Under the pieces are notes generated by a model. That model saw only the letters and a list, made by a program, of their open reading frames with translations. It was not told where the DNA came from and made no database searches. From the IMG/VR virus record IMGVR_UViG_3300009418_003638, positions 1 to 36,666 of that record: a stretch of DNA of 36,666 nucleotides. The stretch is one strand, 5' to 3'. Each line of letters opens with the position of its first letter. Position 1 is the stretch's first letter. Position numbers and translations under genes: made by a program. The DNA comes from a virus. Of this stretch, positions 5,120 through 36,231 are shown piece after piece.

Positions 5120-5444
5120 GAGACTCGTAGAAGAGCTCAGCAAAGAGACTCAGCTCAATAACCTAGTAAGAAAAAGGAAAGAGCAGGATTTTTGTCTCTT
5201 GTACTATAGCTTATGGGGTAAAGACTGTAACGAGATACTGAAAATCATAGAGGAGTGGAAGAAAGAGGAAGGATATGAAAGACTATATTTAATCAATAGT
5301 TGGGATCTCCCTCATGCGTTCACTGCATTTCATATTACGAGAGTTCCAAGCCTCGTGAAAACAACCAAGGGACGTATCCAGGTGATTGACTACTATCCAC
5401 GGATATATTCTTATTTCAAGTCTGGTATTCGTCAGGAGTCCTGA
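5112..5444 (+). CDS. Thioredoxin-fold protein with a GxxC active site
   Basis: A 110-residue protein starting at ATG 5112, which overlaps the upstream stop; the longer in-frame extension from 5031 would be read inside that gene and is rejected. The strand-helix FCLLYYSLWGKDCNEILKIIEEW matches the thioredoxin position of WCGPCK, but the first cysteine is glycine (GKDC). The later ITRVPSLV matches the conserved cis-proline loop, followed by a beta hairpin TKGRIQVIDYY. With one active-site cysteine it is unlikely to be a general dithiol reductant; it may act as a monothiol protein or a structural partner. Its 3' end overlaps the convergent sigma gene by 29 bases. Confidence 0.6.
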   Translation: MAERLVEELSKETQLNNLVRKRKEQDFCLLYYSLWGKDCNEILKIIEEWKKEEGYERLYLINSWDLPHAFTAFHITRVPSLVKTTKGRIQVIDYYPRIYSYFKSGIRQES

Positions 5445-5778
5445 GATTTTGATATTTTTGAATTTTTTCCGAGTATTTTTTATTTTTAGTGTACATCAAT
5501 TTTAAATTATTAACGAACACCGTGGTAAAATAATTGAACGCTGAGCCACTTTTAGGATTGAAATTTTTCAGAACTCGAAAAGCTAACATGAAGCATTCCT
5601 GTTTTGCATCATCCTGGTCTATTTTGAATTTGAAAGTATGGAGGATGTTTGTTATGAGAAGATCCAACTTGGTAACCAACTCGTCTTCGTATTTTTTAGG
5701 ATCCTCTAAATAATTTTTAATAGTTTTCTCAAAATCTTTATTGTTTAGATAATGAGTCTTTTTTTTAGATTTAACCAT
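5416..5778 (-). CDS. Late-transcription sigma factor, gp55-like
   Basis: A 120-residue protein with a sigma-70 region 2-like core: QDDAKQECFMLAFRVLKNFN, then PKSGSAFNYFTTVFVNNLK, then a basic stretch KNKKYSEKIQKY. The NFNPxSGxAFNYFT pattern is shared with gp55-like late sigma factors of T4-related phages, which direct host RNA polymerase to simple -10-only late promoters. It is shorter than T4 gp55 (185 residues) and lacks the other sigma regions, as expected for this class. It lies on the minus strand. Its start is preceded by CTATAATAAGAT, the motif that recurs before several phage genes, so it may be transcribed from the promoter type it recognises. That link is inference. Confidence 0.7.
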   Translation of the reverse strand: MVKSKKKTHYLNNKDFEKTIKNYLEDPKKYEDELVTKLDLLITNILHTFKFKIDQDDAKQECFMLAFRVLKNFNPKSGSAFNYFTTVFVNNLKLMYTKNKKYSEKIQKYQNLRTPDEYQT

Positions 5779-5790
5779 ATCTTATTATAG
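5779..5790 (-). promoter_or_regulatory. Near-palindromic promoter element between divergent start codons
   Basis: Only 12 bases separate the start codon of the late sigma gene (minus, 5778) from that of the exonuclease gene (plus, 5791). Read on the minus strand they are CTATAATAAGAT, with TATAAT five bases before the ATG. Together with flanking bases, the plus-strand reading ATCTTATTATAGAT is almost a palindrome, so the same DNA could serve both directions. No room exists for ribosome-binding sites, so leaderless starts are possible on either side. Confidence 0.4.
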
Positions 5791-6783
5791 ATGCAAGAAT
5801 TAGAAAATCTCTTTGATTCCTTTGAAAAGGAAGATAGTTCATCCAGTGTTTTCCGGTCCGATGTTGGACCTGAGAAGATTGTTTTTGTGCACGATTCGTA
5901 TACACATAGACGTGGGAGAGTTTACGAATTTTCAGATAAGGAGTTTGGTATTTTATCAAGTCTCCTTAAGAAAACTAAGCTCCCTATTGACTGTTACCAG
6001 TTTGTGGCAGCATTGAAGAGTTTTGATACCCGAGAAGAGGATGTCACTACTGAGGTTTTGACCGCTCATAGAAAGTATTTATCGGAGGATCTTGAAGCTA
6101 TTCAGCCAAGCCTAATAATACCGTTAGGAAACCTGGCTTTGAAAGCTGTTACCAAGAAATCCGGAATATTGTCTAAGCGCGGGAAGGAATTTGCAGTTGA
6201 ACTGGAATCTGGGGAAACAGTCCCTGTGGTACCTACTCTCCACCCTTTCTCTTTGTACGTAGAGCCAAAACTTAGATCCTTATTTGTACAGGATATTAAT
6301 AACGCATATAGCAAGTTTATACTAAAGGAGAACAAGTTTGATGGTTCTCCTTATGAACTCATAAACGGAGATATAGGGAAATTTGATGAGTTGATGGATG
6401 AAGCGGATGGGAGTGATGCCGTATCTTTTGATCTGGAGACTAATGGTCTTGATTTCAAGAAACATAAGATAATGACGATAGGCATTTCATATAAGGAAAA
6501 GCATGCTTTCGTATTCCCTATTTACCATGCGGAATGTGAGTTTTCTCCATCGGAACTTGCACACATAAGGAACCGAGTAAAATCTCTAATGAGAAATGAG
6601 AGAATAATAAAAATTGCACATAATCTGAAATTTGATTATAAATTTCTACGTTCGTGGGGGGTGGAAGAATTTAACAATATGGAGGACACGCAAATAATGC
6701 ACTCTCTGGTTGATGAGAACGTACCTCATGGTTTGATGGATCTTGTGAAACAATATTTTCCTAAAGAACTATTGAAATTTTAA
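5791..6783 (+). CDS. DNA polymerase I N-terminal part: UDG-like domain plus 3'-5' exonuclease
   Basis: A 330-residue protein with two domains. Residues about 25-175 resemble a family 4-type uracil-DNA glycosylase (IIPLGNLALKAV, then TLHPF), as found at the N-terminus of phage SPO1 polymerase; the usual GExPG motif is replaced by HDSYT, so glycosylase activity is doubtful. Residues about 205-325 are the DnaQ-like proofreading domain: Exo I VSFDLETNG (D214, E216) and Exo II IAHNLKFDYKFL (N278, D282). The protein stops after LMDLVKQYF, before the Exo III motif and before any polymerase domain; both lie in the gene at 7832. The gene between is unrelated. The stop overlaps the next ATG as TAATG. 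Confidence 0.85.
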   Translation: MQELENLFDSFEKEDSSSSVFRSDVGPEKIVFVHDSYTHRRGRVYEFSDKEFGILSSLLKKTKLPIDCYQFVAALKSFDTREEDVTTEVLTAHRKYLSEDLEAIQPSLIIPLGNLALKAVTKKSGILSKRGKEFAVELESGETVPVVPTLHPFSLYVEPKLRSLFVQDINNAYSKFILKENKFDGSPYELINGDIGKFDELMDEADGSDAVSFDLETNGLDFKKHKIMTIGISYKEKHAFVFPIYHAECEFSPSELAHIRNRVKSLMRNERIIKIAHNLKFDYKFLRSWGVEEFNNMEDTQIMHSLVDENVPHGLMDLVKQYFPKELLKF

Positions 6784-7838
6784 TGAAAGTATTAGTATTA
6801 GGGTGTGGGTTGATCGGGAGGACCATAGCGCAGGATCTAGCCAAGCGACATGATGTGACTGTTGCGGACAATACAGAGTCAGCTCTTGATTCTGTACCCG
6901 ACCTTGAAACTATTCTTTTTGATATTTCTGCCAAAGATTATTTAAAACGAACAGTTAAAAATTTTGATTTAGTTATTTGTGCTGTTCCCGGTTTTCTTGG
7001 GTTTGAAACCCTAAAGAGTATAATCGAGGCTGGAGTAAATGTTGTAGACATTTCTTTTTTTCCTGAAGATGCCCTATCCTTAAATGATCTAGCTGTTAAA
7101 AATGGTGTGACTGCTGTTGTTGATATGGGGATAGCTCCTGGATTAGATAACTTGATATTAGGACATCATGATTCTTTAATGAAGGTTGACTCTTTTGAGT
7201 GCTTGGTGGGGGGCCTGATGAAGGAGAAGTACACATACAAAGCCCCTTTTTCTCCGGCGGATGTCATTCAAGAATATATCAGACCAGCTCGTATGTTTGA
7301 AAATGGAAAAGTTGTTACTAAGAGAGCTCTGTCTGACCCTCAGCACGTTGTAATGAAGGATACAGTATTACAAGCGTTCAATACTGATGGCTTAAGGTCT
7401 TTATTGACTACGATGAAGCATATCCCAAATATGAGAGAAAAAACCTTACGGTACCCAGGACATAGGGAGCAGATGATATTTTTGCGTGATTCTGGATTTT
7501 TTACAAAGGAAAATTTAGAATCAACATCGAAGGTTTTATTTGACTCGTGGAAATTAACTCCCGAAGACGATGAGTTCACTTTTATGCGAGTAACTATTAA
7601 AGGAGGCACAGACCGTCATGTGTGGGAAATATATGACGAGACGGATCTTGTAACTAGAACTTCGTCTATGGCGCGCACGACTGGATATACATGTTGTGCA
7701 ATAGCAGAAGCTGTTCTTTCTGACAACGAATTCGGGTCGGGAATTCTTCCTGGAGAATTAATTGGTGGAAACCAGCGTATTTTTAGTCACGTTATTTCTT
7801 TCTTAGAAGAGAGAGGGGTTAAAGTCAGAAAATGCTAA
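6783..7838 (+). CDS. Saccharopine-dehydrogenase-like oxidoreductase
   Basis: A 351-residue NAD(P)-dependent enzyme of the saccharopine dehydrogenase / lysine 6-dehydrogenase / carboxynorspermidine synthase superfamily. It starts with a Rossmann strand and loop (VLVLGCGLIG, residues 4-12). The family hallmark VVDMGIAPGLDN follows near residues 113-125, then a FSPADVIQEYIRPAR segment typical of the catalytic domain. Family members act on amino-acid or polyamine intermediates; the exact substrate cannot be told. It sits between the two halves of the polymerase, overlapping the first by one base and the second by seven, so all three should be translated together. Nothing in the sequence looks degraded. 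The family call is firm; the biological role is unknown. Confidence 0.8.
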   Translation: MKVLVLGCGLIGRTIAQDLAKRHDVTVADNTESALDSVPDLETILFDISAKDYLKRTVKNFDLVICAVPGFLGFETLKSIIEAGVNVVDISFFPEDALSLNDLAVKNGVTAVVDMGIAPGLDNLILGHHDSLMKVDSFECLVGGLMKEKYTYKAPFSPADVIQEYIRPARMFENGKVVTKRALSDPQHVVMKDTVLQAFNTDGLRSLLTTMKHIPNMREKTLRYPGHREQMIFLRDSGFFTKENLESTSKVLFDSWKLTPEDDEFTFMRVTIKGGTDRHVWEIYDETDLVTRTSSMARTTGYTCCAIAEAVLSDNEFGSGILPGELIGGNQRIFSHVISFLEERGVKVRKC

Positions 7839-9349
7839 CAGTAACAAACGCCGAGACACATGACTGGGGGGATATGCCATTATCTGATATGGCGTTTGGC
7901 AATGCTATGGATTGTGATTTCACCTTGAGGAGTTGGGATATTCTATCCAAAGATATAAAAAAGCTTAACCTTGACCATGTGTATTATAAACTACTTAAGG
8001 ACATCGCTCTCATACTAGGAGATGTAGAGAACAGAGGAATCTCCATTGACAAGGAATATTTAGTTGTTCTTGAGGGAGTATTATCTAAACAGTTGAAGGC
8101 GTTAAAGGCTTCTTTGAGTGATATTTCCCCGGTTTCAGGGGTTAATCCCAATTCGACTGTTGACCTGGGGAAAGTCCTTTTCTCCGATGAAGGTTTTAAT
8201 ATAACTCCTTTAGAGTTTTCTGCCAAGACCAAAAAGCCAGCAATCACTGAGGAACACTTACAAACTATTAAAAGGAACAGCAAGAGTGCTGATGTCATCG
8301 AATTTATAAATTTGCTCTTAGAGTATAAGTCAAAGACTAAACAGTATAACACCTATGTAAAGGGAGTGGAAGCTGCGATAGAGTGGAACGAGGACGGTAA
8401 GATTTATTCTAATTATAATTTTGCCTCTACGGTTACTGGTAGACTAAGCTGCTCCTTGTATAGCGCTGGGGGTGGAATGCGTAAAGGTGTCTCTTTTCAT
8501 ACATTACCTAGACCAAGTGATGACGACGTAAACATTAGAAAACTTATGGTATCTGATCCGAATAAGGTCTTCATCGCTGCTGATTTTTCTGCCGCTGAAC
8601 TTCGTGTTTTGGCTCAGTGTTGTCGTGACAAGAGTCTAATACATGCATTTAAAACAGGACAGGATTTGCATAAGTACACAGCCTCTCTCATTTATGATAA
8701 ACCTATTAATGAAATAACCAAGGAGGAGAGACAAATCGCAAAGAGTGTTTCTTTTCTCATAGTTTACGGAGGAGGCCCTTCCAAGCTTGCCCAGCAAATT
8801 GGAAAAAGTATCGGATATGCTAAGGGAATTTTTTCTTCATATCAGACTTCTTTCCCTAAAGTTTTTGAGTGGATAAAGTTTGTGCATAAGTACATCCTAG
8901 AGAATAAGTGTGCGGTTAGTCTGTTTGGTCGTAGAAGAAATCTGTCTAATGTAGACAGCCCAGTCTCGAAGTACAAGTTTAGAGCTCTTCGTCAAGGGAT
9001 GAACTTTGTAATTCAGAGTTCTGCATCTGATATGATGCTTCACGCTTTAAAGAGACTGCAGTGCCGTTTAGATAAAGAAGGTCTCGATGCTCAAATTCTG
9101 GCTACTGTTCACGATAGTGTTGAAGTGCAATGTGATAAGGGTATCATTAAAGAAGTCGTGGAAATTCTGAAATATGAACTCACTAGGATTGATGATCTGG
9201 AGGAATATTATAATTTGAAATTTTTAGTTCCTTTTGAGGTTGATGTTGAAGTAGGTAATTCGTTTGGAGATTTAACTGAAGTAGTGTTCGATTCTCACGG
9301 TGTGGTAGATAACTATGACGAGATTTTAAATTATGTCGAGAACTCATAG
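7832..9349 (+). CDS. DNA polymerase I C-terminal part: Exo III segment and polymerase domain
   Basis: A 505-residue family A polymerase lacking an N-terminal exonuclease. Residues about 11-36 (DWGDMPLSDM..NAMDCDFTL) match the part of Pol I that carries the Exo III aspartate, so the proofreading site is shared with the separate protein encoded at 5791. Polymerase motifs are complete: motif A FIAADFSAAELR (D251), motif B RQIAKSVSFLIVYGGG (R300, K304, F308, Y312) and motif C TVHDSVEV (D428). F308 corresponds to E. coli Pol I F762. The start ATG overlaps the stop of the saccharopine-dehydrogenase-like gene as ATGCTAA; the end overlaps gp47. The replicative role is inferred, since no other polymerase is present in the window. 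Confidence 0.92.
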   Translation: MLTVTNAETHDWGDMPLSDMAFGNAMDCDFTLRSWDILSKDIKKLNLDHVYYKLLKDIALILGDVENRGISIDKEYLVVLEGVLSKQLKALKASLSDISPVSGVNPNSTVDLGKVLFSDEGFNITPLEFSAKTKKPAITEEHLQTIKRNSKSADVIEFINLLLEYKSKTKQYNTYVKGVEAAIEWNEDGKIYSNYNFASTVTGRLSCSLYSAGGGMRKGVSFHTLPRPSDDDVNIRKLMVSDPNKVFIAADFSAAELRVLAQCCRDKSLIHAFKTGQDLHKYTASLIYDKPINEITKEERQIAKSVSFLIVYGGGPSKLAQQIGKSIGYAKGIFSSYQTSFPKVFEWIKFVHKYILENKCAVSLFGRRRNLSNVDSPVSKYKFRALRQGMNFVIQSSASDMMLHALKRLQCRLDKEGLDAQILATVHDSVEVQCDKGIIKEVVEILKYELTRIDDLEEYYNLKFLVPFEVDVEVGNSFGDLTEVVFDSHGVVDNYDEILNYVENS

Positions 9350-10349
9350 AGCACTTCTCATTAGTGATACACACCTCAGGAGTGATTATGTTCCTGGGTT
9401 TTTAGATACCCAAGTAAAGACATTAACAAAAATTGTAAATGCTAAGCCCCCAGACACTCTTATAATGGGAGGTGATATCTTCCACAAGAGGAATCCTGGG
9501 GGAGAGGAACTATTAGCCCTCAGAAAATTTTTGAATTCTGTACGATGCAAGAACATCATAATTCTACGTGGGAACCATGATACGATTCACAAGGATGGTT
9601 CTTCTCATACAACACTGTCTCTGTTTTCTGACAAGGCAAAAATAATCATAGATACTGAGACTGTCTCAATAGGAGGTGTTTTCTTTGATTTTGTACCTCA
9701 CTACGAAGATGAAGAGAAAATTGTATGTGAAGTAAAGAAAGCAAAAAATCATCTTATAGGACATTTTGGTTTCGATGGGTGTGTATCAAATGGAGCATAC
9801 TCATACGAGTCACGTCTCAAGAGATGGCATTTCCCAAAAAACAAATACAGTTTTCTAGGGCATATTCACAGATCCAGGAGATATGATAACATATTCATTA
9901 TTGGAACCCAGTATTCTAATTCGTTTGGAGAAGCGAATGAGAAAAAATACTATACTGAACTTATGATAAGGGATGGGGATGTTAGACCTATACGAAAATC
10001 TGTGAATTTTGGGATCAGACATGTCATGTGTAACATTGACGATTTACCCTCTAAAGGAAAATCTCTAATTACTCCAGAATTTTTTACTATGTTGCGAGTC
10101 AAGCTCGACAGATTAGATGAATACGTGAAACGCCAAATACATGATAAAGTGATAGACGAGTATGATGTAGATTACTTAGAATTTTCATTTGAAGACCTAC
10201 TTCCAAAATTTATGTCTGACTACACGCCAGACAGGAAAATATTTACATTGGATGAGGGGGTTATAGAAAGTTACATAGACTCTAGGAATTCTGTTTTTAC
10301 TAAGGAGGATCTCATGAATTCTTTAAAAGAGATACGAGATGAAAATTAA
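9333..10349 (+). CDS. Recombination nuclease subunit gp47 (Mre11/SbcD-like)
   Basis: A 338-residue metallophosphoesterase, nearly the length of T4 gp47 (339). All phosphodiesterase motifs are present: SDTHL (D12, H14), GGDIFH (D48), RGNHD (N81, H82, D83), GHFG (H144) and GHIH (H177, H179). With gp46 it forms a Mre11-Rad50-type complex that resects DNA ends for recombination-dependent replication and breaks down host DNA. It overlaps the polymerase gene by 17 bases and gp46 by 11, consistent with co-translation of the complex. Confidence 0.93.
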   Translation: MSRTHRALLISDTHLRSDYVPGFLDTQVKTLTKIVNAKPPDTLIMGGDIFHKRNPGGEELLALRKFLNSVRCKNIIILRGNHDTIHKDGSSHTTLSLFSDKAKIIIDTETVSIGGVFFDFVPHYEDEEKIVCEVKKAKNHLIGHFGFDGCVSNGAYSYESRLKRWHFPKNKYSFLGHIHRSRRYDNIFIIGTQYSNSFGEANEKKYYTELMIRDGDVRPIRKSVNFGIRHVMCNIDDLPSKGKSLITPEFFTMLRVKLDRLDEYVKRQIHDKVIDEYDVDYLEFSFEDLLPKFMSDYTPDRKIFTLDEGVIESYIDSRNSVFTKEDLMNSLKEIRDEN

Positions 10350-11949
10350 CAAAGTGGTGGTTGAAAATTTTCTCTCCATCGGGAAAACTGAGTTGGATTT
10401 TGACAAATACAGTGGGCTTGTTCATGTCATAGGAAAGAACGAAGATACAAGACCTTTCTCTTCCAATGGCGCGGGTAAGAGTTCTATAGTAGAAGCTGTA
10501 GTTTTTGCTTTATTTGGAAAGACTATACGGAAGACTTCTGAAAAGAGTTTGATCAATACATTTACCACAGGCAAATGCAAAGTAACTCTTACCGTTAATG
10601 ATAATGTAGTAATAACTAGAACTAAAAAACCCCCTTCGCTAATTGTTAAAGTTGACGGAAAGAGTGTGACTAGAGAAGGAGTTTTGCAAACTCAGGAATA
10701 TCTGGAAGGGATTCTGAACACGGGTTATAATGTTTTTTTGGCATCTATAGTGTTTGGACAGCAAAACAATGTAAATTTCCTCTCATGTACGGCTGAGGAG
10801 AAGAGATCCATCATACAAAATTTTCTTAACATTACTGATCTCTTCAAGAACAGGTCTAGGATACGTTCGCTGAAGTCTAAATTTAATTCTGAAAAAAAGA
10901 TTGCCGCTACTTTACAGAGCGAATCTCTACAAAAGACCAATAGATTGAAAAGACGATTGAAGGGTTGTAGGGATGAGAAGGCACATGCAAAGGGGCTATT
11001 GACGAAGGAGAAACATGATTTCATTATGAAATATTCTCTTTCTGAGATACAGCAGTTGGAAGCTGCTAAAATTGATAAGGAACTTTCCATGAGAGATGTA
11101 CAAAATGAACTTTCCCATGTGACTGTCTCTATCAGCAAAGCTAAAAGCAATATTGAATTTTTTAGCGCCAACTCCATTTGTGAGCATTGTAGCAAACAAC
11201 CAGAAGCTATCTCTACAAAGAGAGAGGAAAATGAAAAGAGATTAGAAGTCTTGTACCAACAAAAAATTGATATAAGAAAAGAGTTAAAGAGACGCTATAA
11301 GGAATTTGATGATATGTTTATACCCATCTCGTCCTCTGACTATGAACTTGTGGAAATCTTAAAAACTACCGATATCAAAATAGCTCTAACTAATAGGTCT
11401 ATTCGTGAACAGCAGGCTCTGTCTAGAAAATACTCTAAGCAGATGGAGGAAGCTCAGAAGAAATATGACATCATGAAATTTTGGGAAGTTGCCTTTTCCG
11501 AACAAGGATTGGTCAAGTACATAATTAGGAATGTTCTGGATTATTTCAATGAAAGAGCCAATTATTATCTTAGTATTCTTTCAAATAATGCGTTCTCTAT
11601 TGAATTTGATGACAGCCTGATGGAAGAGATAAGATCTTCTGGTAGCACAATACATTTCGAGTCTTTGTCTGGAGGAGAGAAACAAAAATTTTCTATCTCT
11701 GTCATGATGGCTTTAAATGACCTGCTACTTCTTTCTGGTAAAGATGGGTCGAATATAATATTTTTTGATGAGGTCGGAGATTCTCTGGATAGGGGGGGAA
11801 TTAGAGGTTTATATGAGTTAATATCCAGTATATCTTCTAATAAAAAGTTGTTTTTGATAACCCATAATCCTTACTTGAATTCTTTAATAGAAGACGATGC
11901 AGAACGCTTATTCGTCAGAAAAAAGAATAATCTAACAACCTGCAAATAA
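10339..11949 (+). CDS. Recombination ATPase subunit gp46 (Rad50/SbcC-like)
   Basis: A 536-residue SMC-type ABC ATPase, close to T4 gp46 (560). The Walker A motif SSNGAGKSS is at residues 41-49. It is followed by coiled-coil halves that flank a zinc hook with CEHC (C281, C284). Then come the signature motif LSGGEKQ (from L443) and Walker B IIFFDEVGD (about 473-481). It powers and gates the gp47 nuclease. The coding overlap with gp47 and the matching sizes make the pair secure. Confidence 0.94.
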   Translation: MKINKVVVENFLSIGKTELDFDKYSGLVHVIGKNEDTRPFSSNGAGKSSIVEAVVFALFGKTIRKTSEKSLINTFTTGKCKVTLTVNDNVVITRTKKPPSLIVKVDGKSVTREGVLQTQEYLEGILNTGYNVFLASIVFGQQNNVNFLSCTAEEKRSIIQNFLNITDLFKNRSRIRSLKSKFNSEKKIAATLQSESLQKTNRLKRRLKGCRDEKAHAKGLLTKEKHDFIMKYSLSEIQQLEAAKIDKELSMRDVQNELSHVTVSISKAKSNIEFFSANSICEHCSKQPEAISTKREENEKRLEVLYQQKIDIRKELKRRYKEFDDMFIPISSSDYELVEILKTTDIKIALTNRSIREQQALSRKYSKQMEEAQKKYDIMKFWEVAFSEQGLVKYIIRNVLDYFNERANYYLSILSNNAFSIEFDDSLMEEIRSSGSTIHFESLSGGEKQKFSISVMMALNDLLLLSGKDGSNIIFFDEVGDSLDRGGIRGLYELISSISSNKKLFLITHNPYLNSLIEDDAERLFVRKKNNLTTCK

Positions 11950-11950
11950 T

Positions 11951-12220
11951 ATGAAAATTATACCATACCATAACCGAATTTTAGTTAAGAGACACATCGA
12001 GAAGGTGGAAGCCAAGTTTGGGATTATAATTCCTGATGAGGTTAAAGACAATCCTACGTGTGAAGGAGTCATAGAATCTGTAGGAGACGAAACTAGCGGG
12101 AAACTCAAAGAGGGTCAGAGGGTTCTTTTTGAAGAATTTAGTGGAAGAGAGATAGAGCTGGATGAAGATATATATCTCATCATAGCAGAGGATTCTGTAA
12201 TAGCGATAATGGAAGTATAG
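11951..12220 (+). CDS. Co-chaperonin GroES
   Basis: An 89-residue Cpn10-family protein: IIPYHNRILVKRHI at the N-terminus, a mobile loop with FGIIIPDEV that contacts GroEL, and GVIESVGDE followed by the EGQRVLFEEF strand. T4-like phages use gp31, and others a true GroES, to fold their capsid protein with host GroEL. This one reads as a bona fide GroES in sequence rather than a gp31-type analogue. No GroEL gene occurs in the window, so it would pair with the host chaperonin. It lies one base after gp46. Confidence 0.9.
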   Translation: MKIIPYHNRILVKRHIEKVEAKFGIIIPDEVKDNPTCEGVIESVGDETSGKLKEGQRVLFEEFSGREIELDEDIYLIIAEDSVIAIMEV

Positions 12221-17788: not shown

Positions 17789-18529
17789 ATGGTAAACTTA
17801 GACCAACTTAGAAAAAAATATGAACAAATTAATCGCACTAAATCGGACAACGATACCAGCGATTTTCTCAAAAAGTTTTTGATGATGAAAGAGGGTACGA
17901 CTGTAGTTCGTATCCTTCCTTCTAAATCCGAAGACGAAGATTTTTATGCAGAGACTGCCATCCATCGTATTGATGGCAGGAATCACCATTGTCCGCGTGT
18001 GAAAGGTAATGATTGTCCACTGTGTGATCTCAGCTACCAACTTTGGAATACCAAAGTGGACGAGAATCAAAATATTGCAAGACAAATTAAATCCAGTAAG
18101 CGTTTTTACATTAACGCCGTTGAACGAGATACGGGAGATGTCAAGATCCTTTCCATGGGAGTGAAACTTTTCAGTAAGATTTTAGACTGCTTCTTTGACG
18201 AAGATTACGGAGATATCACCGACGTTAAAGAGGGACATGATTTCAAAATCGTTAAGGATATCCAAGGTCAATGGCCTAATTATGATAAGTCTTCTCCAAA
18301 GCCCAAGAGATCTCCGGCTGGTTCTGCCCAGGAAATAGCTCAATGGTTCGACGAACTACACGATATCCATGGTTTGGTTAGAGTAGCCTCATATGAGGAT
18401 TTGAAGAAGATGGCTCTTAGCATTATCGGAGAGAGAGATTCTACAAATACACCCGACCCAATGCCCAAAGAAGACAGTGATGATGAGGGAGACTATCTAT
18501 CTCATCTGAAAGGGTTAGGGAATGGTTGA
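17789..18529 (+). CDS. Single-stranded DNA-binding protein, gp32-like
   Basis: A 246-residue SSB that coats single-stranded DNA during replication and recombination. The N-terminus MVNLDQLRKKYEQI resembles the cooperativity arm of gp32. The zinc site is HHCPRVKGNDCPLC (H67, C68, C76, C79), inside an OB-fold core, and the C-terminus is acidic (PKEDSDDEGDYL), the partner-binding tail of SSBs. It is shorter than T4 gp32 (301 residues), as in many marine relatives. It has its own upstream promoter-like element and hairpin, fitting high expression. The first glycosyltransferase gene starts inside its last codons. Confidence 0.88.
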   Translation: MVNLDQLRKKYEQINRTKSDNDTSDFLKKFLMMKEGTTVVRILPSKSEDEDFYAETAIHRIDGRNHHCPRVKGNDCPLCDLSYQLWNTKVDENQNIARQIKSSKRFYINAVERDTGDVKILSMGVKLFSKILDCFFDEDYGDITDVKEGHDFKIVKDIQGQWPNYDKSSPKPKRSPAGSAQEIAQWFDELHDIHGLVRVASYEDLKKMALSIIGERDSTNTPDPMPKEDSDDEGDYLSHLKGLGNG

Positions 18530-19703
18530 TGAGTCTAATGACGATAGCAGGAAACGCAAGCTTAAGATACTTGCGTTTCCTGCTAATACGGGTGGATGTA
18601 GCTACTATAGAATTATCATGCCAATGGATAAGTTGGCAGAGAAATTTCCAGACGATGTAGAAATTAGGTTTAATTTTAATCCTTTAAAATGGGATGAGGA
18701 TACTAGGCAACCACCCAAAGAAGAAGTAGAATATGAGGATTTGGATTGGGCAGATATCATGTTCACTCAGAATATCGCTAACTATGGTCCTCAGTATATG
18801 ATAGACCTCTTTAAGAAATGTAAGGAGAAAAATAAATTCATTCATTACGATACTGATGACCTTTTGACGGATTTATATGCGGGTCATCGCTTAGAAGGTG
18901 TGTATAAGGAACAACGTCTGGATGAGCTTACGAAGGTTCTATATCACAATGCAGATCTAGTCTCTGTTACACAAGGTAAATTTGCGCAGAGGGTCGCTCC
19001 GTTCGTGAGAGGGTGTTTATGTGTGATCAAAAATGCAATTGATCATGACCTCCCGTGTTGGAACTTTCCTAGAGTAAAAGCGCCGAAAAAAGTGTGTAGG
19101 GTTGGGTGGGTAGGAGGCATCCATCACGAGCAGGATGTGAAACAAATTCCTACCATAGCCATGGGAGTAAATTCAAAAGTAGGTGCAGAGAGAGTTCAAT
19201 GGGGGTTCTACGGGAGACCAACCCTGGCTCCGGAACAGAAACGAGACTGGCAACAAGATGTGTGGGATTCTTACGAACGTCTCTTGACAAGGGGGGTCAA
19301 ACATAGGAATACATTTGTTTTTCCTGCTGCACCATCTCATATGTACGGAGCTATGTACAGAACTATAGACATTTCTATAGCTCCTCTGGAGTGGAATAAT
19401 TTCAATGACTCTAAATCGGAGATTAAGGCTATGGAAGCGGGTAGATACGGTATACCACTAGTGGCCACTAACTGCGGATGCTATGATGAGATAATTGAAA
19501 ATGGAGTTACGGGGTATCTCATTGATAAAGATAATCCGAAGAGTGAGTGGGTTAATGTTTTGTCTCGCCTTATCAAAGATAAAAAGCATCGCGTGGAGTT
19601 GGGGAATAATTTGAAACTTTTAACAGATGAACGCTTTAATATTAACTCCCATATAGGTGAGAGGCTTAAGTTATACAGGAAACTATTAGATGCAAAAAAG
19701 TAA
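18522..19703 (+). CDS. Glycosyltransferase, GT-B fold (family 1/4-like)
   Basis: A 393-residue retaining-type GT-B enzyme. The N-terminal Rossmann half contains ILAFPANTGGCSYYRI and MFTQNIANYGPQYM. The C-terminal nucleotide-sugar half contains VGWVGGIHHEQDV, ISIAPLEWNNF and the family motif SEIKAMEAGRYGIPLVATNCG, then ENGVTGYLI. Donor and acceptor are unknown. It is the first of fourteen glycan genes, and its ATG overlaps the SSB stop by eight bases. A 16-bp perfect hairpin begins about 24 bases into the coding region and could limit read-through from SSB. Confidence 0.85.
   Translation: MVDESNDDSRKRKLKILAFPANTGGCSYYRIIMPMDKLAEKFPDDVEIRFNFNPLKWDEDTRQPPKEEVEYEDLDWADIMFTQNIANYGPQYMIDLFKKCKEKNKFIHYDTDDLLTDLYAGHRLEGVYKEQRLDELTKVLYHNADLVSVTQGKFAQRVAPFVRGCLCVIKNAIDHDLPCWNFPRVKAPKKVCRVGWVGGIHHEQDVKQIPTIAMGVNSKVGAERVQWGFYGRPTLAPEQKRDWQQDVWDSYERLLTRGVKHRNTFVFPAAPSHMYGAMYRTIDISIAPLEWNNFNDSKSEIKAMEAGRYGIPLVATNCGCYDEIIENGVTGYLIDKDNPKSEWVNVLSRLIKDKKHRVELGNNLKLLTDERFNINSHIGERLKLYRKLLDAKK
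18545..18585 (+). promoter_or_regulatory. 16-bp perfect hairpin at SSB/glycosyltransferase boundary
   Basis: TAGCAGGAAACGCAAG (18545-18560) and CTTGCGTTTCCTGCTA (18570-18585) are exact inverted repeats around a nine-base loop. The stem lies 15 bases past the SSB stop codon and within the first 22 codons of the next gene. There is no U-run after it, so it is not a classic terminator. It may act as a stability stem for the SSB messenger, a processing site or a brake on the glycan operon. Confidence 0.55.
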
Positions 19704-20523
19704 AATTAAAATTATTTCTGGATTCACAAATGCAGGGGGTTCCACGGTTGCTAATGTTAATTTATGTAACCTTTTTAATGAGAGGGGACTGGATTGTACT
19801 TTTTACGGTCCTGAGGCATGGCATCTAGACAAATGCAATGGGGATATTCTCAACTCACAGAATACAGCTGTAAATGAGGAAGGAGAAATTCTTCTCCTGC
19901 ACTATCTTAAGTTTCCTAGTCGGCCTACTGCTTCTAGAAAGGTTATCTTGACATGCCATGAGAAAGCTTTATTTCCCATTTCTTCCATACCCAGATTTTG
20001 GGACGATATTCATTTTGTTTCCGAACACCAGAAGAAATGGCACAGGGAGCCTGGTTTTATTATTCCAAATGTTGTCTCAAAATTAGAGCACAGCAAGAGG
20101 AAGCCTAAGAAAGTGGCTGGAATTATAGGAAGCATAGACAAGAATAAGAGAGTGCATGTCTCTATTAGAAAGGCTTTGGAGGAGGGTTATGAAGATATTT
20201 TGTTGTATGGGTTTATCAGTGATGAGATGTATTTTAACGCACTTGTTAAACCCTACGTAGATGAGGGTCTCGTCACTATGATGGGTCATGAAGATGATAA
20301 GCAGAAAATGTATGATTCCGTTACCAAGGTATTTCATTCTTCTCGCAGCGAAACTTTTAATTTTATAGTGCCCGAGTGTGAAATGACTGGAACTGAGTAC
20401 TGCGGGAGCGAATCTGCTAATCCTTTTTCCGATGAGAAAAATCTAAATATATCCTCTACACGTTATGAGATGACCAATGATGATATATTCGAGGCGTGGA
20501 TGAAATGTCTGGGAATCTCGTAA
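19690..20523 (+). CDS. Glycosyltransferase-like protein, GT-B fold
   Basis: A 277-residue protein that looks like a compact GT-B glycosyltransferase. It opens with IKIISGFTNAGGSTVANVNL, the glycine-rich loop of such enzymes. A mid region DIHFVSEHQKKW..IIPNVV follows, then VAGIIGSIDKNKRV and SRSETFNFIVPECEMTGTEY, the donor-binding half with its conserved glutamate. It is shorter than most family members. It overlaps the preceding gene by 14 bases and the next by 19. Donor and acceptor are unknown. Confidence 0.7.
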   Translation: MQKSKIKIISGFTNAGGSTVANVNLCNLFNERGLDCTFYGPEAWHLDKCNGDILNSQNTAVNEEGEILLLHYLKFPSRPTASRKVILTCHEKALFPISSIPRFWDDIHFVSEHQKKWHREPGFIIPNVVSKLEHSKRKPKKVAGIIGSIDKNKRVHVSIRKALEEGYEDILLYGFISDEMYFNALVKPYVDEGLVTMMGHEDDKQKMYDSVTKVFHSSRSETFNFIVPECEMTGTEYCGSESANPFSDEKNLNISSTRYEMTNDDIFEAWMKCLGIS

Positions 20524-21206
20524 CTATCTTATGCTCTAGTTACAACTCAATGGAGTGGGTTGAAGGGTACTGTGATGCAGTCAATTCTCAAATGTTGTCT
20601 GAGTTTGATCTTGTAGTTTGCGATGCAAATTCTGAGGATGGGTCACGTGAGTTTTTTAAAAATTATAAATTTAGAGAGGGGATCAATGTTATCTTCAGAG
20701 ATTACAAATCTCGTATAGGGGTTTATGATGCGTGGAATGGTGCTCTAGAGGAAACTAGAACTCCATATGTAATGAATGTAAATACGGATGACAGACTTTT
20801 TCCTGGCGCGTTGACCACTATGCTTGGATATGCAGTAACACGCCCTGATATTGATGTTTTTTACTCCAGGTGTTTAGTTACTGATGATAAAGATCATTCT
20901 AATATTGTTCAGTTGTACGACTGGCCTGAGTACTCGCATGAAAACATGCTAGGACAGTGTTTGTGTGGTCCTTTCCCCCTAGTAAAGAGGGATTCTTTGG
21001 TAAAGGCAGGAAAATTTAATCCTAAATATACCATATCGGGGGATTATGAAATGTGGCTAAGGATGTCCAAGAAAGGTTTCAGGTTCATGAAAGTTAAGGA
21101 ACCTATAGGAAGTTACTATTTCAATCCTACAGGAGTAAGTACTGACACATCTAGATTTGATGAGCACTTGAAGCAAGATATAGAAATTCGTGAGATGCAC
21201 AAATGA
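20505..21206 (+). CDS. Glycosyltransferase family 2 (GT-A)
   Basis: A 233-residue GT-A enzyme. It starts VTILCSSYNSMEWVEGY, then FDLVVCDANSEDGSREFF, the UDP-binding strand and loop of family 2, and then NVNTDDRLFPGAL with D95-D96 in the metal-binding position. SGDYEMWLRMSKKGFRF marks the acceptor-side catalytic region. I chose the ATG at 20505 over the in-frame GTG at 20496 because the family's first strand starts right after it. The gene is coupled to both neighbours by overlaps. Confidence 0.85.
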   Translation: MSGNLVTILCSSYNSMEWVEGYCDAVNSQMLSEFDLVVCDANSEDGSREFFKNYKFREGINVIFRDYKSRIGVYDAWNGALEETRTPYVMNVNTDDRLFPGALTTMLGYAVTRPDIDVFYSRCLVTDDKDHSNIVQLYDWPEYSHENMLGQCLCGPFPLVKRDSLVKAGKFNPKYTISGDYEMWLRMSKKGFRFMKVKEPIGSYYFNPTGVSTDTSRFDEHLKQDIEIREMHK

Positions 21207-22024
21207 TACCTGTGATAATGACAGAAAAGACTATACAATACAGTGAACATCTTAATGTCGCTGTAGAGCGTTCTAATTTTAAAAATCGTACCATTGTACT
21301 GGGAGACGAAGGTAACTTGCAGTGTGGTGCAGAGCATCACATGATGTCTGATTATTCATATAGAGCGAATAAGTTTGCGGAAGTGTATACACACCTAAAT
21401 TTCAATCCCGAGTGGATGGAGCTTTTGTGTTTTAAGAGATGGTTTGTAATACATGATTTCATGGAGAAACACGACATTGATGTTTGTTTTCACTGTGACA
21501 GTGATGTCTTGGTGTTTGTTGACGTCAATGAGGAGTATCATAGGTTTAAGCAATTTGAAATGACCTTGAGTGGACGTGTGAGTGGGCATACTGGGTTTTT
21601 TACTCGTAAGGGTCTTAAGAAATTTTGTGATTTCATGTTCAATGTGTATTCTGAACGTGGATATTTGTATGAGCTTTTTTGTACAATTTATGAGCTTAGG
21701 CAAAAGCACCAAGTACAGGGAGGAGTTTGTGATATGACTTTGCTAGGAGAGTATGCAAATCAGAATGCTCCAACTATTGGTGAAGTCTCTGTTGTTATGG
21801 AGGGCAGCGGTCTGTCGCCATTACCGTTTTTTGATCATCATTTACGCTGTGAGGAAGGAGATTTTGAAATGGTCAATGGGAAGAAAAATATATTTTTCTT
21901 AGACGGGCTTCCCTGGTGTAGGCAAGTTGCAGGACCTCGTGTTCCTTTTGCAACCATACACTTCCAAGGGGCCTTGATGAAGCCATTAATGAAGGAATTC
22001 AATAATAAGGCTCTCAAGACATGA
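21203..22024 (+). CDS. GT-A-type glycosyltransferase-like protein
   Basis: A 273-residue protein with FHCDSDVLVFVD (D99, D101), a DxD motif in a strand-loop setting typical of GT-A enzymes, preceded by FKRWFVIHDFMEKHDID. A late segment FFLDGLPWC and PFATIHFQG resembles the C-terminal metal-contacting part of this fold. I cannot place it in a numbered family. It lies in the four-base-overlap chain of glycosyltransferases, which supports the assignment. Confidence 0.65.
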   Translation: MIPVIMTEKTIQYSEHLNVAVERSNFKNRTIVLGDEGNLQCGAEHHMMSDYSYRANKFAEVYTHLNFNPEWMELLCFKRWFVIHDFMEKHDIDVCFHCDSDVLVFVDVNEEYHRFKQFEMTLSGRVSGHTGFFTRKGLKKFCDFMFNVYSERGYLYELFCTIYELRQKHQVQGGVCDMTLLGEYANQNAPTIGEVSVVMEGSGLSPLPFFDHHLRCEEGDFEMVNGKKNIFFLDGLPWCRQVAGPRVPFATIHFQGALMKPLMKEFNNKALKT

Positions 22025-22905
22025 TTTACATATCCTCTGTATTTGATAGAAATTACTTACACTACGGCATAGCATTGTTGGAATCTTTGAGATTCACATA
22101 CGGAAATGATTTTGAATTCCATTGTTTGTGCTTAGATGACAAGTCATTTGAGGTTATGAATGGAGTTTCTTCTCAGGCTATTCCATATGATATCAAAGAC
22201 TTAGAGAATTCTCATGAGGAGCTACTGGATGCAAAGATTACACGCCCGTACAATGAGTACTGCTGGACACTGGCTTCATGGTTCTCGAATCACCTTCTTG
22301 GCTCTGTAGATATTCCCCATATAATCTATATCGATTCTGACATCTGGTTCTTGTCAGACAGCAGAAGATTTTTTGAAGAATGTCTGGAAAAATCAGTCGG
22401 AATCCTAAGACACAGGCACATCTTAGAGGGGCACCCTGACGGTGGGTATAATGTGGGTGTTGTCTCATTTAGGAATGACGAAGTAGGGAAGAAGACTTTA
22501 GGGTGGTGGAAAGATTGTGTGTTGAAAAGGGAACCTCTGCACCTCGCCACGTGTGGGGATCAGAAATTCTTAGATGCTTTTCCAGATGTGGCTGGTAAAG
22601 GAAACATCAAGTTTGTAGATGAGAATTTTTCATATGGAGCGCCATGGACTTACAGGTTATATGGATGGGCAGACTACTTGCGAAGTGGAGATGTCCTGTG
22701 GGGGGGAGTTCTCCAACCACTAGTATTTGTACATTTTGCTAGGATACAGATTGATTATAAAACCAAAGAAGTAACTCCTGTAAGTGACCCAAGATTTTCA
22801 GTGCATACACTTAATGATGGAGTCTTCTCTATCCCAGAAGTTAGTTTGCTCTACCATCAGTATGCAGACAGACTCTTTAAAATAGACGATGAGTATAACC
22901 TATGA
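22021..22905 (+). CDS. Glycosyltransferase, family 8-like (GT-A)
   Basis: A 294-residue GT-A enzyme. It begins MIYISSVFDRNYLHYGIALLE, the start of the sugar-nucleotide fold. It then has PHIIYIDSDIWFL (D105, D107, DxD metal site), GYNVGVVSFRND and TCGDQKFLDAFP, matching the order seen in family 8-like transferases; a late VFVHFA contributes the final histidine. It overlaps the neighbouring genes by four bases on each side (ATGA). The acceptor is unknown. Confidence 0.75.
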   Translation: MIYISSVFDRNYLHYGIALLESLRFTYGNDFEFHCLCLDDKSFEVMNGVSSQAIPYDIKDLENSHEELLDAKITRPYNEYCWTLASWFSNHLLGSVDIPHIIYIDSDIWFLSDSRRFFEECLEKSVGILRHRHILEGHPDGGYNVGVVSFRNDEVGKKTLGWWKDCVLKREPLHLATCGDQKFLDAFPDVAGKGNIKFVDENFSYGAPWTYRLYGWADYLRSGDVLWGGVLQPLVFVHFARIQIDYKTKEVTPVSDPRFSVHTLNDGVFSIPEVSLLYHQYADRLFKIDDEYNL

Positions 22906-23795
22906 ACATTGCATTTGGAATGATTGTATTTGAAGGGGATTACGTCTTGAGACAGTCCCTGGAATCAGTATATCCTTTTGCTTCCCAAATATTGATTGCT
23001 GAGGGTCCCGTCAAGTACTGGCAAGAGCAGGGTAGGACTACGTCTACTGATTCTACGAATGATATACTAGAGAGTTTTCCGGACCCTGACAACAAAATTA
23101 AAATTGTTCATGGGCAGTTCGAAGGGAAGGATGATCAATGTAGGGCATATATGAAGTTCCTCGATAAAGATATTGACTACATCTGGAACCTAGATTCTGA
23201 CGAGGTATACAAGTCTGAAGATATAGAGAAGATAATTGAATTGCTGGAGAGGGAAAAGTATACGTCCGTTGGAGTTCAGAGTTGTTCATTTTATGGGGGT
23301 TTTACCAGTTACATCGGTGGGTTTGAGGAGAACGTAGATAACTTCCTAAGGATTTTCAAAGTGTACCCAGGCTGTACATGGGAGACCCATAGGCCTCCAA
23401 CTATAATAGCTCCGTCCGATGTCGTTACGCTCCCTAAAAAACATTTAGACAGTGACACACTCTGGGACAAGCACGGTGTCAGAATGTATCACTACTCGTA
23501 CGTATTTCCCACCCAAGTTAAGAACAAATTAGAATATTACAAGGAGAAGGTTAACAGGTACAATTGTCATCCAAATTATTTTAATGAGATTTACCTGCCA
23601 TGGATCACCGGAGATTCTGTAACAAGGATGAACGTTGAAAAATCATGGCGTGGTGTTCACGAATTCATTTCAAGAGATGACTCGTATACTAAATTTTTTG
23701 TTGGGGATCATCCAGAGCCTATTACTGCTTCCCTGACCGAACTTGAAAATAGAGTACAACATGAACTTAAATATTACACTGCGCGACAATCCTGA
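22902..23795 (+). CDS. Glycosyltransferase family 2-like
   Basis: A 297-residue GT-A protein. It has an N-terminal strand MNIAFGMIVFEGDYVLRQ and a FASQILIAEGP segment. WNLDSDEVYKSED (D98, D100, E101) is the DxD metal-binding motif with a neighbouring acidic residue, as in family 2 enzymes that act on surface glycans. The C-terminal part contains HYSYVFPTQVKNKLEYY. It is coupled by a four-base overlap upstream and a 35-base overlap downstream. Donor and acceptor are unknown. Confidence 0.72.
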   Translation: MNIAFGMIVFEGDYVLRQSLESVYPFASQILIAEGPVKYWQEQGRTTSTDSTNDILESFPDPDNKIKIVHGQFEGKDDQCRAYMKFLDKDIDYIWNLDSDEVYKSEDIEKIIELLEREKYTSVGVQSCSFYGGFTSYIGGFEENVDNFLRIFKVYPGCTWETHRPPTIIAPSDVVTLPKKHLDSDTLWDKHGVRMYHYSYVFPTQVKNKLEYYKEKVNRYNCHPNYFNEIYLPWITGDSVTRMNVEKSWRGVHEFISRDDSYTKFFVGDHPEPITASLTELENRVQHELKYYTARQS

Positions 23796-24690
23796 TCTAT
23801 ACGTAGATTACAAGAAGTGCCAAGAGTTCCTTGCAGATGTTAAGGATGAAGATTTTTCGTACCCTGAAGGCATCACGTATTTTCATGTCTACACAGAGGT
23901 CAGAACCCCCAAGGAGTTGATGGCTATAAAATCGTATGTGGCTACTCAGAACCTGGAGAAAACTAAACTTATCGTTTGGTCTGATTATGATATTTCTGAT
24001 CAGGAAAACATTCAACCTTACAAAGATGCTGTAGATTTCCGAGTATACAACTCTACGGAACTCGCTAAAGGGACTCCCCTAGAGTCTAGGCATGAATACC
24101 TAAACCCACAGGATGATGACAGACATTGGATGAGTAGCGGAATTATGAGATTCCTAGTCTTGTATAAGTTTGGGGGTATTTATTACGATATGGATATGGT
24201 ATTGTTGAGAGATTTTAAACCTCTTCTAGGAAGAAATTTTGCATACCAGTGGGGTTCATCAGTTGATTTCGGTAAAGAGAATGAATTTTCTGGAGACTGT
24301 CACGGACCATGTGCAGCCTTATTGGGAGCGAACAGAGGAGAGCAGTATATCGAAGATTGTATAGAGACTTTGTTGTCTACTCCCATCCGTCCTATGTCCA
24401 CCTGTTTTGATGAAGATATGATGGCTAAAGTTTATAGAAAGAATCCAGATTGTTTTACCATTTTCCCTTCTCCTTTTTTTAATACTGAATGGCTTATTAG
24501 CAAGACTGACAAGGCATTGGCTACGGAAGTTGAGGATTGCTGGTTTAGCATACCGCTGCGAGATGAAAAGAATCTATTCCTGGATTCTTTTGCCTGGCAC
24601 TGGCATAATTCATCTAATAAGAATAAAGATGTAATGGAAGGGTCCAAGTTTTATTTGCTTGAGCAGTTGACGGATAAAAGGTTAAGGTGA
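23761..24690 (+). CDS. Glycosyltransferase, family 32-like (Gly_transf_sug)
   Basis: A 309-residue enzyme with the strong motif YKFGGIYYDMDMVLL (D143, D145), the DxD signature of OCH1/MIPC-type family 32 transferases. A following NEFSGDCHGPCAALLGA and a C-terminal WHWHNSS (histidines late in the chain) fit the family. I chose ATG 23761 rather than the in-frame TTG 23743. It overlaps the previous gene by 35 bases and precedes the methyltransferase by seven bases. It is the last of seven consecutive glycosyltransferases. Confidence 0.82.
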   Translation: MNLNITLRDNPDLYVDYKKCQEFLADVKDEDFSYPEGITYFHVYTEVRTPKELMAIKSYVATQNLEKTKLIVWSDYDISDQENIQPYKDAVDFRVYNSTELAKGTPLESRHEYLNPQDDDRHWMSSGIMRFLVLYKFGGIYYDMDMVLLRDFKPLLGRNFAYQWGSSVDFGKENEFSGDCHGPCAALLGANRGEQYIEDCIETLLSTPIRPMSTCFDEDMMAKVYRKNPDCFTIFPSPFFNTEWLISKTDKALATEVEDCWFSIPLRDEKNLFLDSFAWHWHNSSNKNKDVMEGSKFYLLEQLTDKRLR

Positions 24691-24697
24691 GTAGAAA

Positions 24698-25300
24698 ATG
24701 AAGTACATAAATTCATGGAAAAATAAGAGGGTTTCTGAAAAACAACTCGAGCTTAATCTTGAGGAGTTGGACTATCGGTATCCGGAACACTGGAAGATAT
24801 TTATATCCACGGTTTTCCGTATGGATGTGAGCTCTGTGCTCGATATCGGATGCGGGGTTGGATCTTACAAAAAGTTGTGTTCTCGACATTTCTCCCGGCT
24901 TAAGTATACCGGCATGGATTACTCTGAAGAAGCTGTCAAGATAGCCAAGGAAAAGTGGGGGGATCATTTTTACCAGGGTGACTACAAAAACTTAACGAAG
25001 GAGGACGCAAAGAAATACGAGTTGCTACATGCTGGAGCACTCTTGGACGTACTTCCAGACGGAGATGAAGCATACGAGTTTCTGCTGAGTCTAGGGTTCA
25101 AGTACGTTATATTAGGAAGGGTTTTTCTGTGGGAAGAGTTATCATCGTCTTCGCTGTTTCACGGAGCCTACGGGGAAATTACCACGTATAAATTTAAACA
25201 TAACGTAGATAATCTTACTTTGATAGGGGATAAGCAGGGCTATGACCTTAAAATAACTGGAGATTTGAATGCGGCTACTGTTCTATTGGTGCGGAGATGA
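24698..25300 (+). CDS. SAM-dependent methyltransferase (class I)
   Basis: A 200-residue methyltransferase with the SAM-binding motif VLDIGCGVGSYKKL near residue 47, then YTGMDYSEEAVKIAKEKW (acidic residue of strand 2) and ELLHAGALLDVLPD (motif around strand 4). The target is probably a sugar or glycolipid intermediate, judging from its position between a family 32 glycosyltransferase and a sugar aminotransferase. This substrate is inference. It overlaps the next gene by four bases. Confidence 0.82.
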   Translation: MKYINSWKNKRVSEKQLELNLEELDYRYPEHWKIFISTVFRMDVSSVLDIGCGVGSYKKLCSRHFSRLKYTGMDYSEEAVKIAKEKWGDHFYQGDYKNLTKEDAKKYELLHAGALLDVLPDGDEAYEFLLSLGFKYVILGRVFLWEELSSSSLFHGAYGEITTYKFKHNVDNLTLIGDKQGYDLKITGDLNAATVLLVRR

Positions 25301-26283
25301 ATATGATAAATCTGTTTGAAATAGAACCTGTCAAGGTAGACACAGCCATGTTTAAGCATGTTCTACACGATCCTATAGTAGAAGAATTCGAGAGAGAATT
25401 TGCTGATTTTGTAGGGGCAAAGTACGCTTGTGGATTCTCCAGTGCCTCCATTGCTATTTCGATACTGTTGGAAAAATTTACTCATGCAAGTGAAACTGTA
25501 AAAATTCCTAGCATTATCCCCCCAGTTGTACCCAATGCCATCATCCACGCCAGAAGAGCCCTTAGTTTCTACGATAATATATCTTGGGTCGGTGGGAAAT
25601 ATCTTTTACACAAAACAAACTGGAATGGGCACCCCATGTCTATATTCGACTCTGCTCAACAGGTAACGAGAGATCAGTATGGTCAGTCTTGTTTTGGTCA
25701 GGATGTTATGATTTTTAGTTTCTATCCTACTAAGCCTGTGGGTGGTGTTGACGGAGGGATGGTTGTTACTGATGATGAACAGGTGTACAAAACTCTTAAA
25801 TCATGCGCCATGTATGGGATGGGGTATTCTAAAAATAGTTGGGATCGTGAAATTAGATTTCCAGGTTGGAAAGGATATCTGTCCTCTATACAGGCCTATG
25901 CTGCCAGGAAGAGTTTAAAGTCTTTGGATTCCAGGTACGCCAGGTTGGATGAAATTAGGGATAGGTACAGTAAGGAACTAGAACTCAATAGTTCCCTCGC
26001 TATAGATACTCCTAGCTACCATCTTTATAGAATAGGTGTTAATGATAATAAGGGATTTATTAAGCACATGAAAGATAATGGGGTGGTGTGTGGAATTCAT
26101 TATCATAATTTGGATGATCATCCTGTGTATGTCCCCTTTCAAAGGGAACCTACTGGTAAGGAATTTATTCTCTCCAAGTTTGCAGCCCATAGAACTGTCT
26201 CAATTCCGTTCCACCACAAGCTGTCGGTGGAAGATGAGGATTATATAATAGGATTGGTTAAGGAGTGGGAAGGTGCGTCTTAA
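25297..26283 (+). CDS. Sugar aminotransferase (DegT/DnrJ/EryC1 family)
   Basis: A 328-residue PLP enzyme of the family that aminates keto-deoxy sugars on nucleotide carriers. Features: FEREFADFVGAKYACGFSSASIAI near the N-terminus, SIFDSAQQVT, then FSFYPTKPVGGVDGGMVV with the PLP lysine at K147. The C-terminal part has GIHYHNLDDHPVY and AHRTVSIPFHHKLS, the usual closing motifs. Adjacent to the FdtA-like ketoisomerase, it suggests a 3-amino-3,6-dideoxyhexose such as those made by FdtA/FdtB or QdtA/QdtB. The N-terminus is somewhat short, but the family call is firm. Confidence 0.87.
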   Translation: MNMINLFEIEPVKVDTAMFKHVLHDPIVEEFEREFADFVGAKYACGFSSASIAISILLEKFTHASETVKIPSIIPPVVPNAIIHARRALSFYDNISWVGGKYLLHKTNWNGHPMSIFDSAQQVTRDQYGQSCFGQDVMIFSFYPTKPVGGVDGGMVVTDDEQVYKTLKSCAMYGMGYSKNSWDREIRFPGWKGYLSSIQAYAARKSLKSLDSRYARLDEIRDRYSKELELNSSLAIDTPSYHLYRIGVNDNKGFIKHMKDNGVVCGIHYHNLDDHPVYVPFQREPTGKEFILSKFAAHRTVSIPFHHKLSVEDEDYIIGLVKEWEGAS

Positions 26284-28686: not shown

Positions 28687-28688
28687 AT

Positions 28689-34214: not shown

Positions 34215-34217
34215 AAT

Positions 34218-36153: not shown

Positions 36154-36231
36154 GGGAGCGTAGCTCAGTTTGGTTAGAGCATTCGCCTTATATGCGAACG
36201 GTCTCAGGTTCAAATCCTGGCGCTCCTACCA
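36154..36231 (+). tRNA. tRNA-Ile (anticodon UAU)
   Basis: A full cloverleaf can be drawn. The acceptor stem GGGAGCG pairs with CGCTCCT (first pair G-U). The D arm is GCTC..GAGC, and the anticodon stem TTCGC/GCGAA holds the loop CTTATAT. The T arm is TCAGG-TTCAAAT-CCTGG. The anticodon TAT reads AUA. The 3' CCA is encoded. AUA is frequent in the phage genes here, so the tRNA probably supports their translation. Confidence 0.93.

Follow-up and report, generated by a model that had tools for sequence, protein, structure and literature searches.

The 36,666-bp IMG/VR virus record IMGVR_UViG_3300009418_003638 (referred to as the window, i.e., the whole stretch of DNA that was analyzed) encodes a family A (Pol I-type) DNA polymerase that is distributed over two genes, both on the plus strand, with a metabolic gene, also on the plus strand, between them (Table 1). 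In Pfam searches, the product of the upstream gene (protein A) matches the uracil-DNA glycosylase (UDG) superfamily (PF03167, residues 83-170) and a truncated DNA_pol_A_exo1 domain (PF01612, profile positions 10-129 of 173). The downstream product (protein C) carries the remaining segment of the exonuclease, together with the polymerase domain. In protein B, encoded between them, both the NADP-binding (PF03435) and the C-terminal (PF16653) saccharopine dehydrogenase domains are present, and its nearest solved structure by sequence is Pyrococcus PH1688 (3abi; E value, 5.8e-70). The UDG-like domain of A scores far under the NCBIfam cut-offs for family 4 and UdgX. AlphaFold2 (AF2) models were made of A and C as separate chains. 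The model of A (predicted local distance difference test [pLDDT] score, 81) is matched by Foldseek to UdgX/family-4 UDGs and to the Klenow exonuclease domain, with target-normalized template modeling (TM) scores of ∼0.6 to UdgX and Sulfolobus UDG4 for the UDG fold, and the model of C (pLDDT, 84) has TM scores of ∼0.75 to the Pol I enzymes of Bacillus (Bst) and Taq. The original prediction, made from the DNA sequence, had described a Pol I-type enzyme that is broken inside its proofreading site and whose halves flank an oxidoreductase gene; both Pfam and the alignment described below agree with that description, and the coordinates that it gave for the three genes and for their 1-nt (TAATG) and 7-nt (ATGCTAA) overlaps are all correct.

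TABLE 1 Features of the split-polymerase locus in the window (Ec, E. coli PolA numbering)
Feature	Positions	Strand	Description
Protein A	5791..6783	+	330 aa; UDG-like N-terminal domain, then a 3'-5' exonuclease domain limited to Exo I and Exo II
Exo I	6430..6438	+	D214 (6430-6432) and E216 (6436-6438), aligned with Ec D355/E357
Exo II	6634..6636	+	D282, aligned with Ec D424
TAATG seam	6781..6785	+	Stop of A and start of next gene, 1-nt overlap; insertion point
Protein B	6783..7838	+	351 aa; saccharopine-dehydrogenase-like oxidoreductase, optional seam cargo
ATGCTAA	7832..7838	+	Stop of B and start of C, 7-nt overlap (from the sequence)
Protein C	7832..9349	+	505 aa; Exo III segment and entire family A polymerase domain (PF00476)
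Gly23 of C	7898..7900	+	Occupies the position of Exo III Tyr497
Exo III	7910..7912	+	D27 of C, aligned with Ec D501; fourth carboxylate, on the other chain
Polymerase active-site span	8582..9115	+	D251 (Ec D705), R300, K304, F308 (Ec F762), Y312, H427, D428 (Ec D882), from the alignment
SbcD- and SbcC-like genes	9333..11949	+	Next in the operon; phrog_100 and phrog_77; near-invariant junctions, used as control

When A and C were aligned together with seven unsplit enzymes, namely, E. coli PolA and six polymerases of phages, the final residue of A fell on E. coli position 473 and Met1 of C on position 474, so that no residues are missing at the break; the end-to-end comparison that the original prediction had proposed thus reveals zero lost residues. 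Judging from this alignment, A and C are the two halves of one family A polymerase. Protein C holds counterparts of E. coli D705, R754, K758, F762, Y766, H881, and D882, as expected of family A. All four carboxylates of a DEDDy-type family A exonuclease (D355, E357, D424, and D501) are also present, although spread over two chains, three on A and one on C. Residues D214, E216, and D282 are invariant across 38 A sequences and D27 is invariant across 36 C proteins, and this invariance persists down to sequence identities of 32% for A and 48% for C.

Relatives of the locus were collected from IMG/VR and, after removal of identical seams, yielded 67 distinct A-C seam sequences, some of which are near-duplicates of one species. 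The break point is the same in all 67. The arrangement is unchanged in L001 and L006, which are ∼100% identical, but the gene for B is absent from the 87%-identical L002 and L003, where A meets C through TAATG. The seam is also empty in L007, L008, and L019 (66% identity; TAAAATG or TAGAATG), as well as in the deepest lineage, L132/L134 (32% identity in A and 46% in C), which is split with an empty TAATG seam. In the phylogenetic tree, 64 split rows are separated from 5 unsplit outgroups with a support of 100/100, and the divergence of A tracks that of C (r = 0.95). The fission is old and fixed in this virus lineage. Since the 87%-identical relatives without the dehydrogenase are split as well, the dehydrogenase is not the cause of the split; the original prediction, which treated the oxidoreductase as part of the split itself, does not hold in this respect, as the lineages just listed have the break without B, and in others its place is taken by glutamine synthetase, ThyX, nucleases, or small genes. 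An artefact of sequencing or assembly at 6781-6783 or 7832, which the same prediction named as a way in which it could fail, is ruled out by independent contigs and has next to no probability: the break recurs, at a TAATG or near-TAATG junction, in 67 distinct seam sequences that come from many samples, and nothing was found in favor of an error apart from the possible chimerism of a single relative (L079, see below).

A further fragmentation of the polymerase was found in L057-L059, L061-L063, and L129-L131, where C is itself in two parts, C1 (157 aa) and C2 (371 aa), with the break following residue 157 and the two genes overlapping by 4 bp (ATGA); both parts were confirmed by profile searches. 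The A/C1 seam of this three-piece form occurs with or without cargo, and in L129 the genes for A, C1, and C2 are consecutive and cargo-free (C1 and C2 at L129:5001-5474 and 5471-6586). The best phage matches to C are only ∼28 to 31% identical, with no close isolate among them, and a scan of bacterial and archaeal genomes retrieved just distant (20 to 27% identity) polymerases and no provirus or host.

The seam between the two genes is a variable slot for unrelated auxiliary genes. The distance from A to C ranges from 2 to 3,735 bp and exceeds 150 bp in 55 of the 67 seams. Five neighboring junctions are near constant, with a spread of just 58 to 326 bp: 9 to 79 bp from the sigma-like gene to A, -14 to 44 from C to SbcD, -8 to 132 from SbcD to SbcC, 26 to 352 from SbcC to ribonucleotide reductase, and 652 to 825 from the resolvase to the sigma-like gene. 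Clustering of the inserted open reading frames (ORFs) showed that many relatives carry from one to four genes, up to 3.7 kb, between the halves. The most common cargo is glutamine synthetase (36 seams), whose nearest solved structures are eukaryote-type enzymes, followed by a 60- to 70-aa protein without an assigned family (19 seams) and PD-(D/E)XK-like nucleases (7 seams; PF20472 in 5 and a second nuclease-like family without a Pfam match in 2). The dehydrogenase, ThyX (PF02511), and an 84- to 107-aa protein without an assigned family are each found in 6 seams; further cargo consists of singletons, and 12 seams contain small genes or nothing. The largest cargo of any seam codes for a 659-aa protein without a known family (L095:3017-4996), which follows glutamine synthetase and ThyX.

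By parsimony, the cargo state must have changed 19 times or more along the tree of C, 11 of these changes being due to glutamine synthetase alone, with gains and losses being inseparable in these counts. The divergence of glutamine synthetase broadly parallels that of the polymerase (r = 0.88), which suggests that this gene has mostly been inherited and lost. In L056, it is only 57 to 60% identical to the enzymes of the sister lineages, compared with 85 to 87% identity for C, and is a replacement. The ThyX family alternates between places, being found in the seam in sister lineages and ∼18 kb away, near position 88987, in the L103 contig (G005), which has a nuclease in its seam.

The geometry of stop and start codons at the seam is conserved whether or not cargo is present. 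The spacing between the stop codon of A and the next start is -4 to +1 nt in 62 of the 67 seams; 42 have TAATG or a 4-nt overlap and 20 more a spacing of +1, regardless of which gene comes next, and the 3' ends of the cargo genes mostly overlap the start of C as well. The frame relation of A to C varies among lineages. Termination-reinitiation would be the natural reading of this geometry.

We consider it likely that these proteins form a two-subunit phage replicative Pol I that is translated from one operon by reinitiation, with A and C associated, the exonuclease site completed in trans, and the seam between the genes used as a cargo slot. Of the four catalytic carboxylates, the A subunit would contribute three, in addition to the UDG-like domain, and the C subunit would contribute the fourth along with the whole polymerase. 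Both would be made from one operon via termination-reinitiation, and binding of A to C would then complete the exonuclease site. An ORF inserted at TAATG would retain the coupling; tolerance of insertion would thus explain how the seam turned into its present state, a slot for varying auxiliary genes that is occupied here by the saccharopine-dehydrogenase-like enzyme. Reassembly of the two chains into an active enzyme is suggested by analogy with the gp43A and gp43B proteins of phage 25, which co-purify and polymerize (PMC2988022).

Several observations weigh against this explanation. The Exo III tyrosine (E. coli Y497, in the motif YxxxD) is present in 7 of 7 unsplit polymerases but replaced by glycine (Gly23) in 36 of 36 aligned C proteins, so that no split copy aligned has the tyrosine that characterizes DEDDy exonucleases; its invariant loss suggests altered or reduced proofreading. 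The last 28 residues of A and the first 7 residues of C, the very segments that would meet, are modeled with low confidence when the chains are separate, which fits a need for a partner and is no demonstration of one. In addition, the contigs are without exception fragments from metagenomes, with neither an isolate nor a host.

The loss of the tyrosine speaks in favor of an alternative in which proofreading has been lost altogether, C being an exonuclease-deficient polymerase and A having been kept for a different task, such as that of a UDG-like DNA-binding or processivity subunit or of a stand-alone nuclease. The extra UDG-like domain of A would also be in keeping with this alternative, which nevertheless appears unlikely, as D214, E216, and D282 of A and D27 of C are invariant at the depths of divergence given above, D27 has no evident use for C alone, and A and C occur together, cargo aside, in all seams. 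Moreover, the comparison of the window virus with L002, in which the exonuclease half of A has a nonsynonymous divergence (dN) of 0.057 with saturated synonymous change versus 0.11 for the UDG half, places A under purifying selection, with its exonuclease half the more constrained. According to the part of the literature on the Klenow fragment summarized in PMC9629493 (citing Derbyshire 1991), three aspartates hold the metals, and L361, F473, and Y497 have secondary roles; because of this division of labor, the exonuclease chemistry would perhaps be weakened rather than abolished. The original prediction stated that the site must form in trans or else proofreading is lost, and this choice stands, with the second branch now reading "weakened or lost." A complete exonuclease elsewhere in the genome, which had been put forward as incompatible with the prediction, was not found on 14 related contigs, although these (30 to 102 kb) are fragments. 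They contain no second PolA-type exonuclease, with one PF01612 match each (protein A), no RNase_T match above the cut-off, and no second family A polymerase, the extra weak matches being the C1 proteins of the three-piece form. No family B polymerase was found on 17 contigs.

A different question is how the break arose. A homing endonuclease or mobile intron could have made the split, with the present cargo genes being later occupants of the scar, a possibility that deserves to be taken seriously even though we lean against it. Other phage genes have been split or occupied in this manner (gp43 of phages 25 and 44RR and nrdA of Aeh1; PMC2988022), an HNH gene separates the PolA pieces of the SPO1-like phage SP8, and PD-(D/E)XK-like nucleases are found in the seams of 7 relatives. 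However, none of the seams yielded an HNH, GIY-YIG, or LAGLIDADG gene, no group I or group II intron RNA was detected in the gap at the Rfam gathering thresholds in 10 sources (the window and 9 relatives), and the seam of the deepest lineage is empty. Such an origin would be compatible with a two-subunit polymerase as the present function of the locus. As the present filler of the gap, a homing endonuclease was rejected, with none in the window and none recognized in any seam. Rejoining of the halves into a single chain, whether by frameshifting, trans-splicing of an intron, or a split intein, is very improbable. In some relatives the halves do abut by TAATG, but in many others they are separated by the cargo genes described above, and the frame relation between A and C is not constant. 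The same Rfam searches speak against a trans-spliced intron; a split intein was rejected, as the end of A and the beginning of C fall on homologous residues, without intein flanks, and the Pfam scan returned no intein family.

Split phage polymerases are already known, and it is the break between Exo II and Exo III and the cargo slot that appear to be new: searches of the open-access literature found no account of this break site, its universal Tyr-to-Gly change, or the variable metabolic-gene slot. The closest unsplit counterparts are the SPO1/Herelleviridae-type Pol I enzymes with an N-terminal UDG-like region (e.g., that of Lysinibacillus phage LysYB1), which have the same A-then-C order and ∼27 to 30% identity to A but form a single chain, keep the Exo III tyrosine, and have no cargo gene. 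As in the window, gp43 of the T4-like phages 25 and 44RR is a replicative polymerase encoded by two adjacent genes (43A/43B; PMC2988022); it belongs, however, to family B, and its gap contains a seg homing endonuclease or an untranslated spacer rather than varied metabolic genes. The OM43 phages MEP401 and MEP402 likewise represent marine phages whose family A polymerase is split with a gene in the gap, as in most related viral genomes (PMC10580990), but their break lies within the polymerase domain, leaving the exonuclease domain on one protein, and the gap holds one small ORF without known function. In Aeh1, an essential enzyme, NrdA, is in two parts with a gene (mobE) between them and is active in this form (PMC2988022); this is another enzyme, and the insert is a homing endonuclease. 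Finally, PolB of MIJ3 is a phage polymerase encoded in two genes that are separated by another (PMC6892783), for which protein splicing by a split intein has been proposed to rejoin the chain; there is no intein here.

Exchange of cargo between viruses could be followed for the dehydrogenase. Between L004 and L060, the dehydrogenases share 89.5% identity, with a synonymous divergence (dS) of 0.33, whereas the synonymous divergence of the A and C genes of these two viruses is saturated; the similarity reaches 99 to 100% in the middle of the gene and drops to both sides. Such a profile is as after gene conversion and would reflect lateral exchange of the cargo. In L079 (600-3400), an A gene of the L004 type (100%) is joined to a C gene of the L060 type (100%), with the switch point within a ∼300-bp identical block of the dehydrogenase gene; either recombination or chimeric assembly may have produced this contig. 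A search for transposon ends around B found short repeats only, probably due to chance. Within the annotated phage collection, the dehydrogenase is matched only once, at 48% identity, in a 636-kb uncultured phage genome (L013; LR756504.1, 394122-395213), where no polymerase adjoins it in the stretch read; the DNA-level search also produced a single match, of 116 bp, to the same gene.

A more speculative proposal, to which we give little credence, is that proofreading is a detachable and tunable module that requires docking of A on C, with the Tyr-to-Gly change marking an exonuclease rebuilt in trans. The cargo would set the A:C ratio through the coupling, and hence fidelity, and shared cargo would act as a recombination patch for the exchange of exonuclease and polymerase halves (as in L004/L060 and L079). 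If so, a swap of cargo would change the fidelity of replication. With regard to the two-subunit polymerase that we favor, the catalytic site of a replicative polymerase would be spread over two gene products and stable across a deep virus lineage, and the building of proofreading in trans, as well as its tuning apart from polymerization, becomes testable. The replication operon also has a defined slot for loading and swapping auxiliary genes (glutamine synthetase, ThyX, dehydrogenase, nucleases), providing a handle on the entry and movement of auxiliary metabolic genes among phage genomes. Annotators would otherwise see in A a truncated exonuclease and in C a polymerase without an exonuclease.

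Elsewhere in the window, genes for the tail sheath and tube occupy the left end and are followed by the replication block, in which the SbcD- and SbcC-like genes precede genes for ribonucleotide reductase and a DnaB-type helicase. Just upstream of A, on the opposite strand (5416-5778), is a gene for a small protein with weak similarity to sigma-70 region 2, whose position is conserved in relatives and which is a candidate late sigma factor. A gene for a GroES-like co-chaperonin (11951-12220; phrog_3188) lies between those for SbcC and ribonucleotide reductase. A phage-encoded glycan pathway is suggested by two long runs of genes (18522-29690 and 33486-34955) for glycosyltransferases, methyltransferases, DegT-type aminotransferases, sulfotransferases, epimerases, and nucleotidyltransferases. 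Between these two runs are RecA and ClpX-like AAA genes, and a tRNA gene (36154-36228; Rfam) is found at the right end of the window.

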